Shown: one piece after another, positions 23,445 through 63,543 of the stretch | Layout of the letters: each line of letters opens with the position of its first letter | Position numbering within the stretch: the first letter of the stretch is position 1 | Assembly: GCF_950295315.1 (NCBI RefSeq) | Contig: NC_080164.1 | Span: 15,058,427-15,122,426, forward strand | DNA length: 64,000 nt | Source: Erinaceus europaeus | Taxonomy: Eukaryota; Chordata; Mammalia; Eulipotyphla; Erinaceidae | Direction: 5' to 3' | Notes under the pieces: model-generated | Told to the model about the DNA's origin: nothing | Databases searched by the model: none | What the model saw: only the letters and a program-made list of their open reading frames with translations | Position numbers and translations under genes: made by a program

Positions 23445-23751
23445 GATTGTCTGTCTTAAAAATGATGGGGTAGCTATATCTTCTGCTTGCTTAGCAATTT
23501 CAGTTCAACTCAACAAGTACTTAAAAGCCGGCTGGCTGTCTACTTAACCAGCACCGTGAGCTTGATGCTGCGGGCATCTGAGGGAAGTATGGGAGACATG
23601 CTTTCTGTCTTCAAAGAGCTTACAGAGCTGGTCATGTCACTCACCCTTCTTAAACCCTTCTGGGCTTCCCCTTGCTCTGAAAATTAATGATCATAATCAA
23701 AGCAGTGGTAATAGGCAACACACATGGAGCTAATAGTATATGCTAGGAATT

Positions 23752-23825
23752 ATGCCAGGTGTATTGTATAAGTACCGCGCGTTAACCGATTGCGCCACTG
23801 GAGCTCTAATGCCAGGTGTATTGTA
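23752..23825. repeat. Target-site duplication pair around the tRNA half
   Basis: Two identical 17-bp copies (23752-23768, 23809-23825) separated by only 40 bp. The length fits target-primed reverse transcription. Confidence 0.93.
23769..23808 (-). pseudogene. 5' half of tRNA-Ile(UAU), tailless retropseudogene
   Basis: On the reverse strand the 40-bp insert reads TAGA then GCTCCAGTGGCGCAATCGGT and continues to CGCGCGGTACTTA. This follows nuclear tRNA-Ile(UAU) from base 1 (acceptor strand GCTCCAG, D arm with A box TGGCGCAATCGG, then the 5' anticodon stem) and stops within the anticodon loop. I recall one substitution (TTAACGC for TTAGCGC). There is no T arm, no acceptor 3' strand and no A tail. 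A perfect 17-bp duplication, ATGCCAGGTGTATTGTA, lies at 23752-23768 and 23809-23825. It is an L1-type insertion of a truncated tRNA, not a functional tRNA gene. Confidence 0.85.
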
Positions 23826-25073
23826 CACTACCACTCTTTTTTTTTTAACCCTTACAAAACCCAGGAGACAATTATTGTCATTATCGTATTTTGCAAATGA
23901 GGAAATAAAAACTTAGACAACTTAAACTGCTGTTAAGTACCTTGTCTCTGGTTACGTGGCCAGCGACTGACAGCGGAAGTTTGAGCTCCTCCTTTAAGCA
24001 ATATGCCATGCTCTTTATCTCTAGAACTCTTGTGATCTGGACTGGGCCTCATCTTAAGCCAAACTGAACTTGTAAGGTTTGGACTTGATGTTTTTACTCT
24101 CTTTAGACCTTTGACAGCAACCTTCTACTAAAATTTGACAAACCGTAAGGCTTGGGTGTCACCTGATGTTCCTCTTTAACACCGCACCTTGGCCCCTGGT
24201 ATTGCAGTGACCCATTTCCTTCTGTTGGTTTCCGGCTATTTCAGGACTATGTCTAAGTTACTCCAAGTCCCCAGGACACAGCACATTGTTATCTAGCATG
24301 AGAATTTAGCTCATAGCGGCATTAATCTTTATGAATGCAATACAAATCAAAATAAAGTGGCGTGATGAGAAGGAAATTCTAAGTGGTCCAAAATAATACA
24401 AAATTCCTTTTCCACGGGGGTGGGGTCGGGGGTGGCTAGGTGTTCATATCAGCCTTTCCTTCAGTTTGGGCTTTACTTGAATACATAGGCTCAAATTCCC
24501 TGCCCACATTTATTAATTGCTTCATTTGGAGATGATTTCCCTGGTCCCATTCTGAAATCATTTGCAGACACCTCACCATTTCATTATGGTTCGCTCCTTG
24601 CTTGCTGTCATTTCTGTTTGCCTGTGCTGTCCATTTAACCACCTTTCCTTTCACTCTATAGTGGCTCCCAGCACTTCATTATTTGATAAAATTTAGTGGC
24701 AAAACAGATCTGGGAGTCCCACCGAAGGAATCCAGTTTATTTCCTCTGTTGATACTCAGAATCATGGGTGTAAACAGCTCAGAATTTAAGCTGAATCTGT
24801 GAAGCAAGTCTACTCTCAGTAGTTCCCTCAAAAGAAAGTCTGATGCTCTCTGACATCTGTCACACTGCAGAGCTGTACTTTTCTAAAATCTTTTATCCAT
24901 CAAAACGTGCTACTCATTGTTTCCTGTTGCATTTTTAAAATTTTGGTGTGCAATTTGTCTCAATATCTGTCTGCATTTACTTGCTGTGGAAACTGGAAAA
25001 TAAAGTTTGAATAAGTAAGATGCTACAGATTCCTCAGTAATGTAAGAGTTAAAAGATGAAGGCGGAATGTAAG

Positions 25074-25551
25074 ATGTCCTCTTAGAATTGGTATCCTGGG
25101 ATGTGTATCACCCAGTAGTAGTACTTTGTTTCATGTCCTCTTAGAATTTGTATCCTGGGATGTGTATCACCCAGTTGTACTTTGTTTCATGTCCTCTTAG
25201 AATTTGTATCCTGGGATGTGTATCACCCAGTAGTACTTTGTTTCATGTCCTCTTAGAATTTGTATCCTGGGATGTGTATCACCCAGTAGTACTTTGTTTC
25301 ATGTCCTCTTAGAATTTGTATCCTGGGATGTGTATCACCCAGTAGTACTTTGTTTCATGTCCTCTTAGAATTTGTATCCTGGGATGTGTATCACCCAGTA
25401 GTACTTTGTTTCATGTCCTCTTAGAATTTGTATCCTGGGATGTGTATCACCCAGTAGTACTTTGTTTCATGTCCTCTTAGAATTTGTATCCTGGGATGTG
25501 TATCACCCAGTAGTACTTTGTTTCGTGTCCTCTTAGAATTTGTATCCTGGG
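25074..25551. repeat. 56-bp minisatellite, about 8.5 units
   Basis: Units start at 25074, 25133, 25189, 25245, 25301, 25357, 25413, 25469 and 25525 (last interrupted). Each carries GTCCTCTTAGAATTTGTATC, CTGGGATGTGTATCACCCAG and TAGTACTTTGTTTC. Units 3-8 are essentially identical. Unit 1 has an extra TAG triplet. The end of the last unit, slightly diverged, resumes after the SINE at 25831-25880. Confidence 0.97.
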
Positions 25552-40959: not shown

Positions 40960-41960
40960 TGAACAAGCCAGTCTTTTCTGGGGCACTCAAAAGAAATTTG
41001 ATGCCCCAGACTTCACAGAAGAAGCCCAAATCCACATAAACAACCAGGGACCTCGTGAAAGTTCTGCATTCCCTGTTAGACTGACCAGGGACCTCGTGAA
41101 AGTTCTGCATTCCCTGTTAGACTGACCAGCTGCCTGGTTGACTATTCCAGAGGCCAGTTACTAGAATAAATTCTCAGCCTGGCAGTGAGGTCAGGTGCAG
41201 TCAGTGAGAGAACTAGAAGCTGCAGGAAGTCTGCAGGAGGAGACTCCAGGGATTCCAGGCTTATTGCAATGAAGGAAAAATCCTCTGGGTTTTGCAGGTG
41301 AATCAAATCCATTGGTCCTGCTGGTGCTAGGGGTCTACACTCCAGCTCCAGACATCTCTGGCCAGTTTTCAGGTTACGCAGAGCTTTTCACAGGAGTGGG
41401 TCTTGGTCTCTTCCATTACCTCTGCAGACAACAATTAAGTTCTAGAGAGATCCAGAGATGGACAGGGAAGGTGAAGAGACTAAGAGAGAGAGACAGGCTG
41501 TGGCCAGGCAGAGTCACCAAGGAGTTGAAGACTGAGAAGCCAAGAAGGGTGCTTTGAAAACTGGTGCGGTCACAAAAAACAAACTGGGTGGCGTGGTCCT
41601 TGGTTCATCATGGAATGGGCAGGTTTTCCCTGCCCGTCTTTCAGAGTCAGTGCTGTAGCTTATTTCTGAACAATCTTTGGTTGTACCTTAAACTGCTCTC
41701 GAGCTCTTTGGAGAACCTGCCCCAATTTTAAGTTAACTTTTATTTACACTGATTGGATTAATAGATAAGAACATTAGATAAATTTAACTCTGCTCTTAAA
41801 AATTGACAGGTGTATATCTTAAGTGCCCCTATTTCACATAAGCTATAAAATAAGTCAATAAACCTTGCTCACCTACTATGAAATCTGTAGCTAATCTGAC
41901 TAGAAAGAAAAAAAAAGGTATTCCCCTGTTTAACCTAAACCCACATAGTTTAGCTAAGGA
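40960..41960. other. Unclassified element candidate
   Basis: This stretch has no SINE, L1 or retroposon H signature but is compositionally distinct. It contains a perfect 41-bp direct duplication (41043-41083, 41084-41124) and an LTR-like end (AGCTATAAAATAAGTCAATA, AACCTTGCTCACC at 41840-41875). It may be an old LTR or a unique intron segment. Confidence 0.3.
41043..41124. repeat. 41-bp perfect tandem duplication
   Basis: Two identical copies beginning ACCAGGGACCTCGTGAAAGT, followed by a third partial start (ACCAG). Confidence 0.97.
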
Positions 41961-43322: not shown

Positions 43323-43766
43323 CCATAACTCATACAGTTTTCAGGATTAAACGTTTCAGATTCATGTCAAGACGTAAAGGAGAAATCAAAGGAGGGAAAA
43401 AACAATTTTTTGGATTGTTTCTGGATGTCTCTAGAAATCATGGCTGCGTCCAGATTTTTTTTTTTTAAGTCAATGTCAAACAAAAATTCAGTCATTCAAA
43501 TCATTCTCTTATGAAACGCGACTTGAACCAGATTATCAAGATCTCACCATGTAGGATTAAGAGTCCCCGGAGGGCGTCCTAGTCCAAAAAGGTCCTCGAA
43601 ATTCCATTTAGGGTGTTTCTGACTGTTCCTGCTGGATTGCTTCAGGCACCCATTTTTAAAAGTGTCTTCCCATCGAAGAAAGAATCCAATCAGGAGAGTA
43701 GAACTAACCACGTGTCTCCATACTTGGGAACTGCCAGGGTACTCGAGAATGTTCTTCAAATTAGAG

Positions 43767-44012
43767 TAGTCCTTCTCCATGGGAAACATTCGAGAAGAAG
43801 TCCAGAAAGTCCCAGGGGAAATCCCCATGCATATCCCAAGGTCTACGATCACGGTCATAAAGAACCAAACTGTGGCCCGGAGCAAAATGTAGTCCTTTTC
43901 CTCAGGAAACATGGGAGAGGGAATCCGGAAAGTCCAAGGAGAAATCTCCGTGCATCTCCCAAGCTCTATGATCCCGGTCATAAGAAACCAAAGTTCCCAG
44001 TCAGGGAACCGA
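43767..44012 (-). repeat. 123-bp direct duplication in the retroviral leader
   Basis: TAGTCC-anchored copies start at 43767 and 43890, 123 bp apart. Each carries AAAGTCC, GGAGAAATC or GGGGAAATC, and GATC(A/C)CGGTCATAA. Because 123 is a multiple of 3, the reverse frame stays open through both copies. Confidence 0.85.
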
Positions 44013-44184
44013 AGTGTGGCCCAGAGTAAAATGTTCCAGAGACAGAGAAACTGTCTCATAATGAAACAGTAGAGGCTTTGGCAAACCTCTTCATAAGTAG
44101 AAGAGAAGACCATAGTGCATAGGTAGGCAAAGTCTTCACTTATCCGGGAGTTGCGCAGGTCCAGTCCCACGTTGTAGCGCCATA

Positions 44185-44633
44185 TGTTGTTTTCGACGGG
44201 TTATGTTGTTTTCGCCGGGCTGGCTTCACGGGCGGGTAACAGATGACCAGGGACTCATGGTTGAGCTGTAGGCAGTATCTCTTTATTCATGCAGGATGCA
44301 GCACACAATCTAAGACGAGCTAAGCTAAACTCAACGTACCCTAAAACTCACAATGCTGTCTTTATATGTACTTGCCAAGTAGGGTGGAAACAGGATGTGA
44401 CATAGAGAGGGTGGTGAGAAAAGTGACTGGTGAAAATCAGAGTGTGACAAGGAGGGGGCAGAGCAGGCGAGAATCCTATCACTGAACCACCAATGCCCTG
44501 GAGGGAGTGCTTTATGTAAATGTAAAAGTGATTTATGTAAATAGACCAACGCTTTGAATGGGATTAAATCTATCCCTATATAGGCATATGGTTAAGCAGA
44601 AGAAGCCAGGGGGAGCTGGCATACTATCCAGCA
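44185..44633 (-). mobile_element. 5' LTR of the defective provirus
   Basis: 449 bp from TG to CA. The reverse strand has a TATA-like ACATATAAAG (44360-44369) and AATAAAGAG further downstream, placing U3 on the right, then R and U5. It is about 90% like the solo LTR at 57399 over most of its length. Confidence 0.88.
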
Positions 44634-45182: not shown

Positions 45183-46667
45183 TGAGGTGCGTGCACATGG
45201 GAAAATTTGTCATTTATCAGAGTTTACAAAATCATGATACTTGTTTTCAAAAGCTTGTCTACCAGTAATGCAAAAGTTATTGGAATTCCATTTCCTTTGA
45301 TCTCAAACAATAGTCCTTCTAAACTACTCAAAAGATGTATTCTCACATTTTTTTTTTTAACATGAGCATAAAGCCCCCTAAACTGCTTTGAAGATTTGTA
45401 TACAGATAAGCAGTTCCCTCTCTCTAAATGTTTACACTGAAAAAAAAATTTTTTATAAGTGATTCACACCATTTTCAGAAACAGGCTTGTAGCTGTGGTA
45501 ACATTTAAAGCCACCACTTTCCACACACTGTCTTCTGCTGCAGAAATGTCACTGAAAGGCAGCTTATTTTTTAATTCATTGTTAAAATTTCACCTTTCTC
45601 TTGAGGGGATAAGTTAAGTGTGTTTTTTCTATGTTTTAACTACTAGGCTGTATGTTATCTTTACCACTTGTTATCCAAGAAAAGGTCAGCAAATTTGAGA
45701 CTCTTGCTTTGTTAATGAGAAGCCCACCAGCGTTGTTAGATGACTCATTGAAATGTTTTGTCACAGGGAACCAGCAACTCTGTGATACAAAAGACTTCAT
45801 AGTCATTTTATGCCTTGTGAGGCTTATGAATGGTTTCATGGCATTGTGTGTAGACAATCTGTAGCAAGTAGGCGAATCTGTTAAAATAATGGGGAGGTAC
45901 CGTCTCCAGCCTCTGCATCCTGGTCTGCGAGGCTTCTGTGGTCTGTGCCCTGCAACTGTCCAGACCCATCGAGGCACCAGCATGGCGATATGGTTATTAA
46001 GCTTAATTTCTTCTACCCGTTTTGGATTGCACAATAAATCTGGGTTCTCTTTTTTGTTTTATTTTGTTTCCTGCACGTCTGAATACCATGCTCTCATGGG
46101 ACATGCATCTCCTCTTAGAGACCCCAGGCTCCATCTCAGTGACTGGGAGGGCTTATTTCCTGCTATAAACCTGCCACGTACCATAAACTACAGTAGCTCC
46201 AAACTGCTTTTTCACTCCTTAACACTCTTCCCCTCACCCACTGTGCTTTCTGTAATGCAGGTAGGGGTAGGTCCTTAAGGAGTCTTTCTCTGCCCCCAGC
46301 CTCCTTCCCAAATGAGGTGTCCTTTCTGCTCATAAAATATTCTGTGTATGTTTCTGACATTGGTGTCTTTGTCTCTCTCCCACTGTACCACAAGTTTCTT
46401 GGGACAGAAAGGAGGTCATAGTTTAGAGATACTTGAGACTGTGTGATGGGGTCAGTCTTTCTCACCACATTTGCTACCATAAAAGTCTTTTAAAGGGAGA
46501 TGGTTGGCATTAGCTGTCGCGCCCGCTTGAAACAGTGGTGTGCAGACTATTTAAAACTCCTGGCCTGGCCACAGAGACCTTGCAGCGCTAAGGCTCCTAT
46601 TTGGTCCCCTTCCATTTTTAACAACTTACATTTCAGTTCTCTTTTTTTGTTCATTTTGCCTTTGCAG

Positions 46668-46845
46668 GCTTTAGATGGATTTTTCTTTGTTGTGAACTGT
46701 GAAGGGAGAATTGTATTCGTGTCTGAAAATGTGACTAGCTACTTGGGTTACAATCAGGAGGAATTAATGAACACGAGTGTCTACAGCATCCTGCACGTGG
46801 GAGACCATGCAGAATTTGTGAAAAACCTGCTACCAAAATCACTAG
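46668..46845 (+). CDS. NCOA1: NCOA1 coding exon 4 (PAS-A, residues 119-178)
   Basis: The acceptor is CATTTTGCCTTTGCAG before 46668 and the donor GTAAAGACT follows 46845. The frame opens [20 protein letters not shown] and continues through the typical PAS segments [13 protein letters not shown] and [23 protein letters not shown]. This is the first half of PAS-A, an alpha/beta sensor-like fold used in coactivator contacts. Codon 178 (Val) is split G|TA. Confidence 0.98.
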
Positions 46846-47204
46846 GTAAAGACTATTACTGAACAGAATACAAACTAAAAAGAAAGCAAAGCTACGTAGC
46901 TTTTTAACGTAATATATGTAATATTGTATGTGCAGTGTTTAGCATCATTATAATGTTAACCCATTTATTTAAATCCTTTAAAATGAAGTGTAAGCCTCCT
47001 GAGCGTAAGTACAAAGGATGAATAGAATCCTATGTGAAACTTTTACCCCTCTTCCCCAAAAGTACACATGTACACAAAACTCATCTCTAAAAATCCGTGA
47101 CTGCGAACTGTAGGTCCTGCGTAGCAGTGGACCAGTATTTTGCAATCATTTTGTCATTGCCAGAGCGTAGCTGAAAACAAATGAGAAAGCTCATCGCATT
47201 GACT

Positions 47205-50680: not shown

Positions 50681-51957
50681 TAATTTTTAAAAAATTTTTA
50701 TTTATAAAATGGACCTATTGATAAGACTATAGAATAAGAGGGGTACATTTCCACATAGTTCCTACCCCCAGAACTCTATATCCAATCCCCTCCCTTGATA
50801 GCTTCTTTTTTCTTTATCCCTCTGGGAACATGGACCCAGGGTCATTATGGGGTGCAGAAGGTGGAAGGCCTGGCTTCTGTAATTGCTTCCCCACTGAACA
50901 TGGGCATCGGTAGGTCGATCCATACTCCCTCCCAGCCTGTCTCCTCTCTCTTTCCCTAGTGGGGCAGGGATCTGGGGAGGCCAGGCTCCAGGACACATGG
51001 TGGGATTGTCTGCCCTGAGAAGTCAGGCTGTATCATGGTAGCATTGGGAATCTGGTGGCTGGAAAAGAGTTCAGATATGAAGCAGAATAAATTGTTGGCT
51101 AATCAGGAACCTAAAGGCAAGAATATTGCAGATGAAGATTTGGGGTCTCTGTTTGGAAAAAGCTAGTAGGTCTATTTTAGGTATATTCCAAGGGGCCCAT
51201 GACTTTACTAGTTTTTACCTGAGCCTTACAACGAATATGCTGGGGAGCCGGATGGTAGCGCAGTGGGTTAAGTGCATGTGGCGCAAGGACCGGTTAGGAT
51301 CCTGGTTTGAGCCCCCGGCTCCCCACCTGCAGGGGAGTAGCTTCACAGGCGGTGAAACAGGTCTGCAGGTGTCTCTCTGTCTCTCTTCCTCTCTATCTCC
51401 CCCTTCTCTATCAATTTCTCTCTGTCTTTATCCAATAACAAAAAAACAAAAGAAAAAAACAATGAATATGCTGGTGGACCTAGGTTACTGTCTGGGGAGT
51501 TGGTGTCATAGCTGGAAAAAGGACTAGAAAGCTGGATCAGGGAAGAGAGTAGCTCCCAAATATGGGGAAAGTATATAAATATTGTTAACCATAAACCTCG
51601 TTGATTTGATCTAGGGCCCATACTCAGCACAGGAGCCTATGTAACCTCTGTATGCCTATAGGTCTGAGCTCACATTCTGTGGTCACAGCTAGGAACTTTC
51701 CAGGCTGCACTAATTTCAGGATCCATCTTCCTCAGGCAGTAGGTAGAAGATGTTATCTAACCTCCCTTCGGAGAGTGGAACGTTCCTTGTCATCGTTGAT
51801 CCACATTGAGGGCCAGATCCTATAGGGGCCCACAAAGGGGTCCATTATGTTGTTCCTGAAGGAGATGACCAGTGACAGTGGTGAGAGGGATCTATTAGAG
51901 GTCTAGGCCCATCATGTCTGTGTGGGAATTCCAAGGATCTCTAACTAGGGCCCTAGG
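50681..51957 (-). mobile_element. Retroposon H, longest copy, inserted in L1
   Basis: About 1.06 kb of family sequence plus a nested SINE. AAATCACCATTTTT at 50667-50680 repeats at 51958-51971, a 14-bp target-site duplication. The A-rich 3' end is on the left and the 5' end (CCTAGGGCCCTAGTTAGAG on the reverse strand) on the right. No long frame is open. Mobilisation by L1 is inferred from the tail and duplication. Confidence 0.85.
51244..51460 (+). mobile_element. SINE-A/B hybrid-like, inserted in retroposon H
   Basis: Head GAGCCGGATGGTAGCGCAG with tail CTTTATCCAATAACAAAAA. ACGAATATGCTGG at 51231-51243 and AATGAATATGCTGG at 51461-51474 flank it. Confidence 0.87.
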
Positions 51958-56494: not shown

Positions 56495-56690
56495 CTGCCT
56501 CTCTCTCTCTCTCCTCCACCTCTGTCTGTCTCTGTCTCTCTCTCTGTCTCTGTCTTTCTGTCTCTGTGTGTGTGTCAAATTGGGTAGTTTCTATTTTATC
56601 TCTCTCTCTCCCCCTCGCACTGTTTTTCTCTCTGTGTGTGTCAAATTGGATAATTTCTATTTTATCTCTTCTCTATTTTATTTGGGGGTT
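56495..56690. repeat. TC-rich low-complexity tract with internal duplication
   Basis: CT and TCTG repeats. GTGTGTGTCAAATTGGGTAG plus TTTCTATTTTATCTCTC recur about 68 bp apart (56565 and 56633). Confidence 0.85.
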
Positions 56691-63379: not shown

Positions 63380-63543
63380 CTGAGTGTGATCTAACTCGCC
63401 CCCCCTCTTAGTTACTTGTTAATGTCCCCTCCCCCCTGAGTGTGATCTAACTCGCCCCCTCTTAGTTATTTGTTAATTTCCCCTCCCCCCTGAGTGTGAT
63501 CTAACTCGCTCCCCTCTTAGTTATTTGTTAATGTCCCCTCCCC
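63380..63543. repeat. 54-56-bp tandem repeat, three units
   Basis: Units start at 63380, 63436 and 63490 with CTGAGTGTGATCTAACTCGC, then CTCTTAGTTA(C/T)TTGTTAAT and a C-rich end. Confidence 0.95.

Follow-up and report, generated by a model that had tools for sequence, protein, structure and literature searches.

A tRNA-Ile(UAU) insert ending in the anticodon loop, between perfect 17-bp duplications in the hedgehog Erinaceus europaeus: a very probable tailless retropseudogene

Tailless retropseudogenes, a class going back to Schmitz 2004 (via Noll 2015, PMC5322556) and known for two decades, are the closest described system to the insertion presented here. The portion of Noll 2015 (PMC5322556) on which we draw reports 2,402 human tailless cases with duplications, whose ends lie in single-stranded regions, with a target complementarity of 2-18 nt and the insertion site TT/WAAAAWW. 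Processed and unprocessed tRNAs are both among the sources given there, the unprocessed ones as nuclear sources, and the spread of thousands of like cases tracks LINE-1 activity across vertebrates. According to the same portion, cut or A-tailed intermediates were sought for 5S and U2 and none were found, and internal priming was favoured for that reason. The filters printed in it are a length of at least 30 nt, a 3' truncation of at least 10 nt, a duplication of 8-35 nt and, for tRNAs, no more than 20 nt ahead of the element start. For the tRNA that concerns us, a 38-nt piece of tRNA-Ile(UAU) at human chr7:44465584-44465621 (GRCh37) is printed in an excerpt of PMC4694795. As regards the enzyme, an excerpt of the Atelerix 2025 paper puts LINE1 at 97.8% of LINE content and reports two of its families as active at present.

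We analysed a stretch of 64,000 nucleotides of Erinaceus europaeus (NC_080164.1, positions 15,058,427 to 15,122,426 of the forward strand), hereafter the window, to which all coordinates refer. On its plus strand the 17-mer ATGCCAGGTGTATTGTA stands at 23752-23768 and again at 23809-23825, and the two copies are identical in 17/17 positions, in agreement with the perfect flanking duplication claimed in a preliminary description of this DNA. Taken in minus-strand orientation, the intervening 40 bp (23769-23808) are TAGA followed by GCTCCAGTGGCGCAATCGGTTAACGCGCGGTACTTA. The preliminary description had taken them for a minus-strand tRNA-Ile(UAU) insert running from four bases before base 1 to CTTA, which proved letter-for-letter correct, and the overlap that it had noted between the last TA of the loop and the duplication is indeed present, two bases long and matching nt 36-37. 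The features, with their surroundings, are as follows.

23809-23825, minus strand: target-site duplication, 5' copy in insert orientation (TACAATACACCTGGCAT); exact 17/17 repeat.
23805-23808, minus strand: TAGA, four bases before tRNA base 1; direct reading.
23769-23804, minus strand: tRNA-Ile(UAU) nt 1-35, namely acceptor 5' strand, D arm, 5' anticodon stem and CTTA of the loop; 35/36 letters.
23782, minus strand: G22 to A within the tRNA part; sequence match.
23767-23768, minus strand: TA common to tRNA nt 36-37 and the duplication, with possible primer/template pairing; repeat and tRNA match.
23752-23768, minus strand: target-site duplication, 3' copy in insert orientation; exact 17/17 repeat.
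23709-24023, minus strand: old MIR-like SINE interrupted by the insert; limits estimated from an alignment to a working MIR consensus.

Direct reading gave no oligo(A) tail at the insert end, where CTTA abuts the duplication, and no LINE or SINE part between the duplication copies, the 40 bp being tRNA except for TAGA, which fits either a precursor leader or untemplated bases. The duplication length of 17 is inside the 8-35 nt range required of tailless retropseudogenes, and the insert passes every one of the filters printed in Noll 2015 (PMC5322556). When exact 17-mers repeated at a spacing of 20-150 bases were sought in the window, the pair flanking the insert was among the matches listed. 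Besides it, the matches listed held tandem arrays near 25.1-25.5 kb and 63.4 kb, a repeat at 41043 with a spacing of 41 bases, and one other single exact 17-mer pair, at 56567-56649 (spacing 66, with the TG-rich start TGTGTGTG), which looks like a local duplication.

As reference for the tRNA we used a 38-mer composed of the 24-mer printed in PMC4694795 and the reverse complement of the 5'-exon probe printed in PMC8479045, each as given in an excerpt. The tRNA part of the insert agreed with this human tRNA-Ile(UAU) 5' exon in 37 of 38 letters, counting the TA inside the duplication, and the sole mismatch, an A in place of G22, would disrupt the 13-22 pair. The runner-up place in the window reached 21 letters on the minus strand and the best on the plus strand 23, while the best match in 50 first-order Markov windows was 23/38. 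By the customary numbering of tRNA positions (nt 35-37 for the insert end), the 3' end of the insert falls at nt 35, or at nt 37 with the overlap, inside the anticodon loop; its 5' end is near-complete, four bases ahead of nt 1 of tRNA-Ile(UAU). Beyond A37 the match gained 0 more letters, whether compared with the human TAT1-1 intron probe, with two zebrafish introns or with the mature sequence (assumed continuation). Neither ARAGORN nor Rfam at its gathering score called a tRNA at the site, as expected since only half a tRNA is present; a lax Rfam scan of the site gave two matches (E 3.2 and 4.3), neither of them a tRNA. A functional tRNA was rejected, the 5' part alone being present and both programs finding no tRNA, and from its sequence we take the insert for a molecular fossil with no sign of function seen. 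Exact matching in viral and genome contig collections returned no source tRNA genes, and no phage matched the locus.

The neighbourhood of the insert raises another explanation, namely that the 40 bp belong to a SINE of greater length or to the surrounding MIR. The site does lie inside a MIR-like repeat, and tRNA-like SINEs are frequent in the window, where one abundant SINE gave 42 blast matches, 22 of them near full length. Judged by its sequence this SINE looks tRNA-derived; its head reads GGGAGCCGGATGGTAGCGCAGTGGGTTAAG, and the 21 other near-full copies are 72-83% identical to the copy at 51243-51448. Read in its natural orientation, this one copy ends in an A-rich tail and is flanked by a repeat, and thus tail-primed retroposition has worked in this genome. 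Exact flanking words of at least 9 letters accompany 12 of the 22 near-full copies, a count that comes without a computed chance level and includes some words of A-rich composition or from within a tandem repeat. Against such an origin stand the 37/38 match to tRNA-Ile(UAU) and the lack of a second copy within the window, where repeats of the insert are limited to 11-base words and those of the duplication flanks to words of at most 14 bases (E up to 1 in both cases). A place of the insert within a longer SINE had been set in advance as the finding that would speak against a separate insertion, and within the window we saw neither a second copy nor a SINE continuation.

Furthermore, the MIR alignment improved when the insert was removed. 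After removal of the insert together with one duplication copy, local alignment to the working MIR consensus scored 81 and covered MIR positions 12-260; with both retained, it scored 67 against the same consensus and stopped at position 188. As controls, scores did not exceed 41 for 300 block-shuffled sequences, nor 46 for up to 300 places drawn at random from the window with the vicinity of the site excluded. The flank beyond the insert alone aligned to MIR 222-260 with a score of 30. On the other hand, when a deletion of 57 bases was started at 160 places the best score was 89 (at 23787), others among the best 20 of 160 reached 85 and the true cut gave 81, and a 50-base deletion from 23752 scored 86, again above the 81 of the true cut. 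The MIR flanks thus argue for an interruption whose exact place the alignment does not fix, and for this reason they cannot replace an empty orthologous site. Taking these observations together, we find an origin as part of a SINE or MIR hardly credible.

At a larger scale, 46494-46862 holds an exon-like frame with a PAS-type segment, which matched bHLH-PAS proteins of the PDB in a search of solved structures. This frame is probably NCOA1, in which case the insert would probably lie in an intron. The window also contains a minisatellite at 25074-25551, 1.2 kb from the insert (56-bp unit, 8.5 copies, 98% matches), another tandem repeat at 63380-63480, with units of about 54-56 bases, a repeat with 41-base spacing at about 41043, and open frames on both strands at 43544-44200 that are internally repetitive by eye.

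The claim that the insertion is recent accords with the ages obtained under the rates that we assumed, 2.2e-9 to 4e-9 per site per year. All five CpGs of the insert are intact (5/5) and the duplication copies are identical. With 0 or 1 substitution counted, the 95% upper age bound is about 11-30 million years; the CpGs, under an assumed tenfold rate, place it at about 8-14 million years. Under these assumptions the data suggest an age below about 8-30 million years.

We consider it very probable that the insert is a tailless retropseudogene made by target-primed reverse transcription of LINE-1 type. Read in insert orientation, the insertion site TG/TACAATA agrees with the tailless consensus TT/WAAAAWW in 7/9 positions, which 2.6% of window positions equal or better; with the plain LINE-1 consensus TT/AAAA it agrees in 3/6 positions, as do 23% of window positions. 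The target complementarity of 2 nt is at the low end of the 2-18 range and would occur by chance in about 1 in 16 cases. Target-primed reverse transcription by LINE-1 is therefore held likely and the detail of priming less settled, because the site agrees in 7/9 positions while the LINE-1 motif is matched in only 3/6 and the overlap is minimal. In the mechanism that we propose, a nick in the old MIR would free a 3' end (...GTATTGTA), the terminal TA of which would pair with the UA of nt 36-37, inside the anticodon loop of either tRNA-Ile(UAU) or its unspliced precursor. Reverse transcription would then run from nt 36-37 to the 5' end of the RNA, and a staggered second nick with repair would leave the 17-bp duplication. 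In this scheme we infer LINE-1 as the enzyme, priming by loop pairing, and RNA rather than DNA as template.

With a DNA template, a piece of a tRNA gene would have been patched into a staggered double-strand break without retroposition. Filling in a staggered break could also yield a duplication, and the end of an insert at a splice site cannot tell RNA from DNA template. A start near base 1 of the RNA and an end in an RNA loop speak against a patch, as does a 17-bp duplication without visible deletion; so does the finding, in the cited portion of Noll 2015 (PMC5322556), that comparable insertions number in the thousands and are distributed among vertebrates in step with LINE-1 activity. We regard such a patch as very improbable.

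Within target-primed reverse transcription the template may have taken several forms. We give an even chance to intact or precursor RNA primed internally and leave little room for a template of some other kind; that the RNA was uncut before reverse transcription we hold to be evenly balanced. The preliminary description had proposed a tailless insertion of the 5' part of a tRNA ending in the anticodon loop, which stood, and, as template, either a 5' tRNA half or a reverse-transcription stop at that loop. A pre-cut half is the less well supported part of this reading: Noll 2015 favours priming on intact RNA, and the four extra 5' bases fit a precursor leader or untemplated bases. A 5' half cut beforehand in the anticodon loop, its free 3' end being used in target-primed reverse transcription, is in our estimate a possibility of less than even weight. 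Stress nucleases cleave tRNA in a range that includes nt 35, and the insert taken without the overlap ends at nt 35, within that range. In the tRNA/LINE-1 chimeras (n=21) of PMC13174262 (2026), as far as its excerpt goes, the tRNA pieces are mostly half-length, nt 1-37 is frequent and pre-cut halves are proposed. Noll 2015 (PMC5322556), in the portion cited, on the contrary found no cut intermediates and favours internal priming, with a check that covered 5S and U2 and not tRNAs. Moreover, four bases ahead of nt 1 are unexpected from a mature tRNA half, which would start at base 1, unless they are untemplated; since TAGA possibly is untemplated, the claim of a tRNA half is lowered and still stands. 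Cut and uncut templates would also leave the same DNA at one locus, and reading the insert as the fossil of a tRNA half thus competes with two further models, the three being inseparable from one locus.

The third model has as template the unspliced precursor, or the free 5' leader-exon released by the tRNA splicing endonuclease. We rate these two jointly as rather unlikely, with a figure that overlaps that of the internally primed precursor. They come into consideration because A37, where the match ends, presumably closes the 5' exon; nt 37 of tRNA-Ile(UAU) is presumably also the 5' splice site of this intron-containing tRNA, and on that ground precursor and splicing intermediate remain candidates. 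The human TAT1-1 intron probe we take to start at the first intron base, abutting the exon probe. In the excerpt of PMC8479045 the 5'-exon probe of human TAT1-1 ends CTTATA and the intron probe starts TGACAG, and two zebrafish primers, likewise from an excerpt, continue CTTATA as AGACAAT and TTACAGTACGTT; against these human and zebrafish sequences the match of the insert stops at CTTATA. The mature tRNA, in its assumed continuation, mismatches at the next base too, so the stop of the match is not specific to the splice site; moreover, the final two bases sit in the duplication and may be there by chance. The human chr7 copy has the same last base in the excerpt of PMC4694795, an end that may be a RepeatMasker boundary. 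The insert starts four bases ahead of nt 1, and TAGA may be a leader, which would fit a precursor, or may be untemplated. Unprocessed tRNAs are listed as nuclear sources in the cited portion of Noll 2015 (PMC5322556).

A narrower proposal, which we think improbable, is that the insert is the fossil of a splicing intermediate, the nuclear 5' leader-exon of pre-tRNA-Ile(UAU), cut by the splicing endonuclease and used as LINE-1 template. If it were true, the recurrence, in two mammals, of insertion ends right on the exon border would be a record of a splicing intermediate over evolutionary time. There are presumably human TAT genes with introns beginning CAA, which would extend the overlap from 2 to 5 bases; a literature search for such introns gave no recognised tRNA source among the matches listed, and for this reason we give the longer overlap no weight. 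In open-licence papers, no literature on this insert or on splicing intermediates as LINE-1 templates was among the matches listed, and a search aimed at the latter gave a U6-pseudogene paper only.

The insert adds a single clean observation to the question of whether LINE-1 starts within intact tRNAs or employs halves cut beforehand. tRNA-Ile(UAU) lends itself well to such a test, since the loop end, as we take it, is also the splice site and a human copy with the same final base has been published. Counts of the end points of tRNA-Ile(UAU) inserts genome-wide could separate the template models.

Compared with the described systems, the insert is closest to the tailless retropseudogenes of the cited portion of Noll 2015 (PMC5322556), with which it shares a 3'-truncated tRNA, an end in a loop, a missing A tail, a duplication and a near-complete 5' end, and possibly a small overlap of target and RNA; we found no structural difference, the agreement with the site consensus being 7/9 and the overlap low (2 nt). 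The human chr7 copy, compared by the sequence without flanks printed in the excerpt of PMC4694795, derives from the same tRNA and has the same first and last base (GCTCC...CTTATA), whereas two other letters differ from the exon. These two changes look like CpG decay. The tRNA/LINE-1 chimeras of the excerpted PMC13174262 are alike in that nt 1-37 is a frequent piece and duplications are present in 8/8 sampled cases. They differ from the insert in the LINE-1 piece joined to the tRNA, mostly antisense, where the insert has none between its duplications. The locus is a clean, ordinary new example of a known insertion class.
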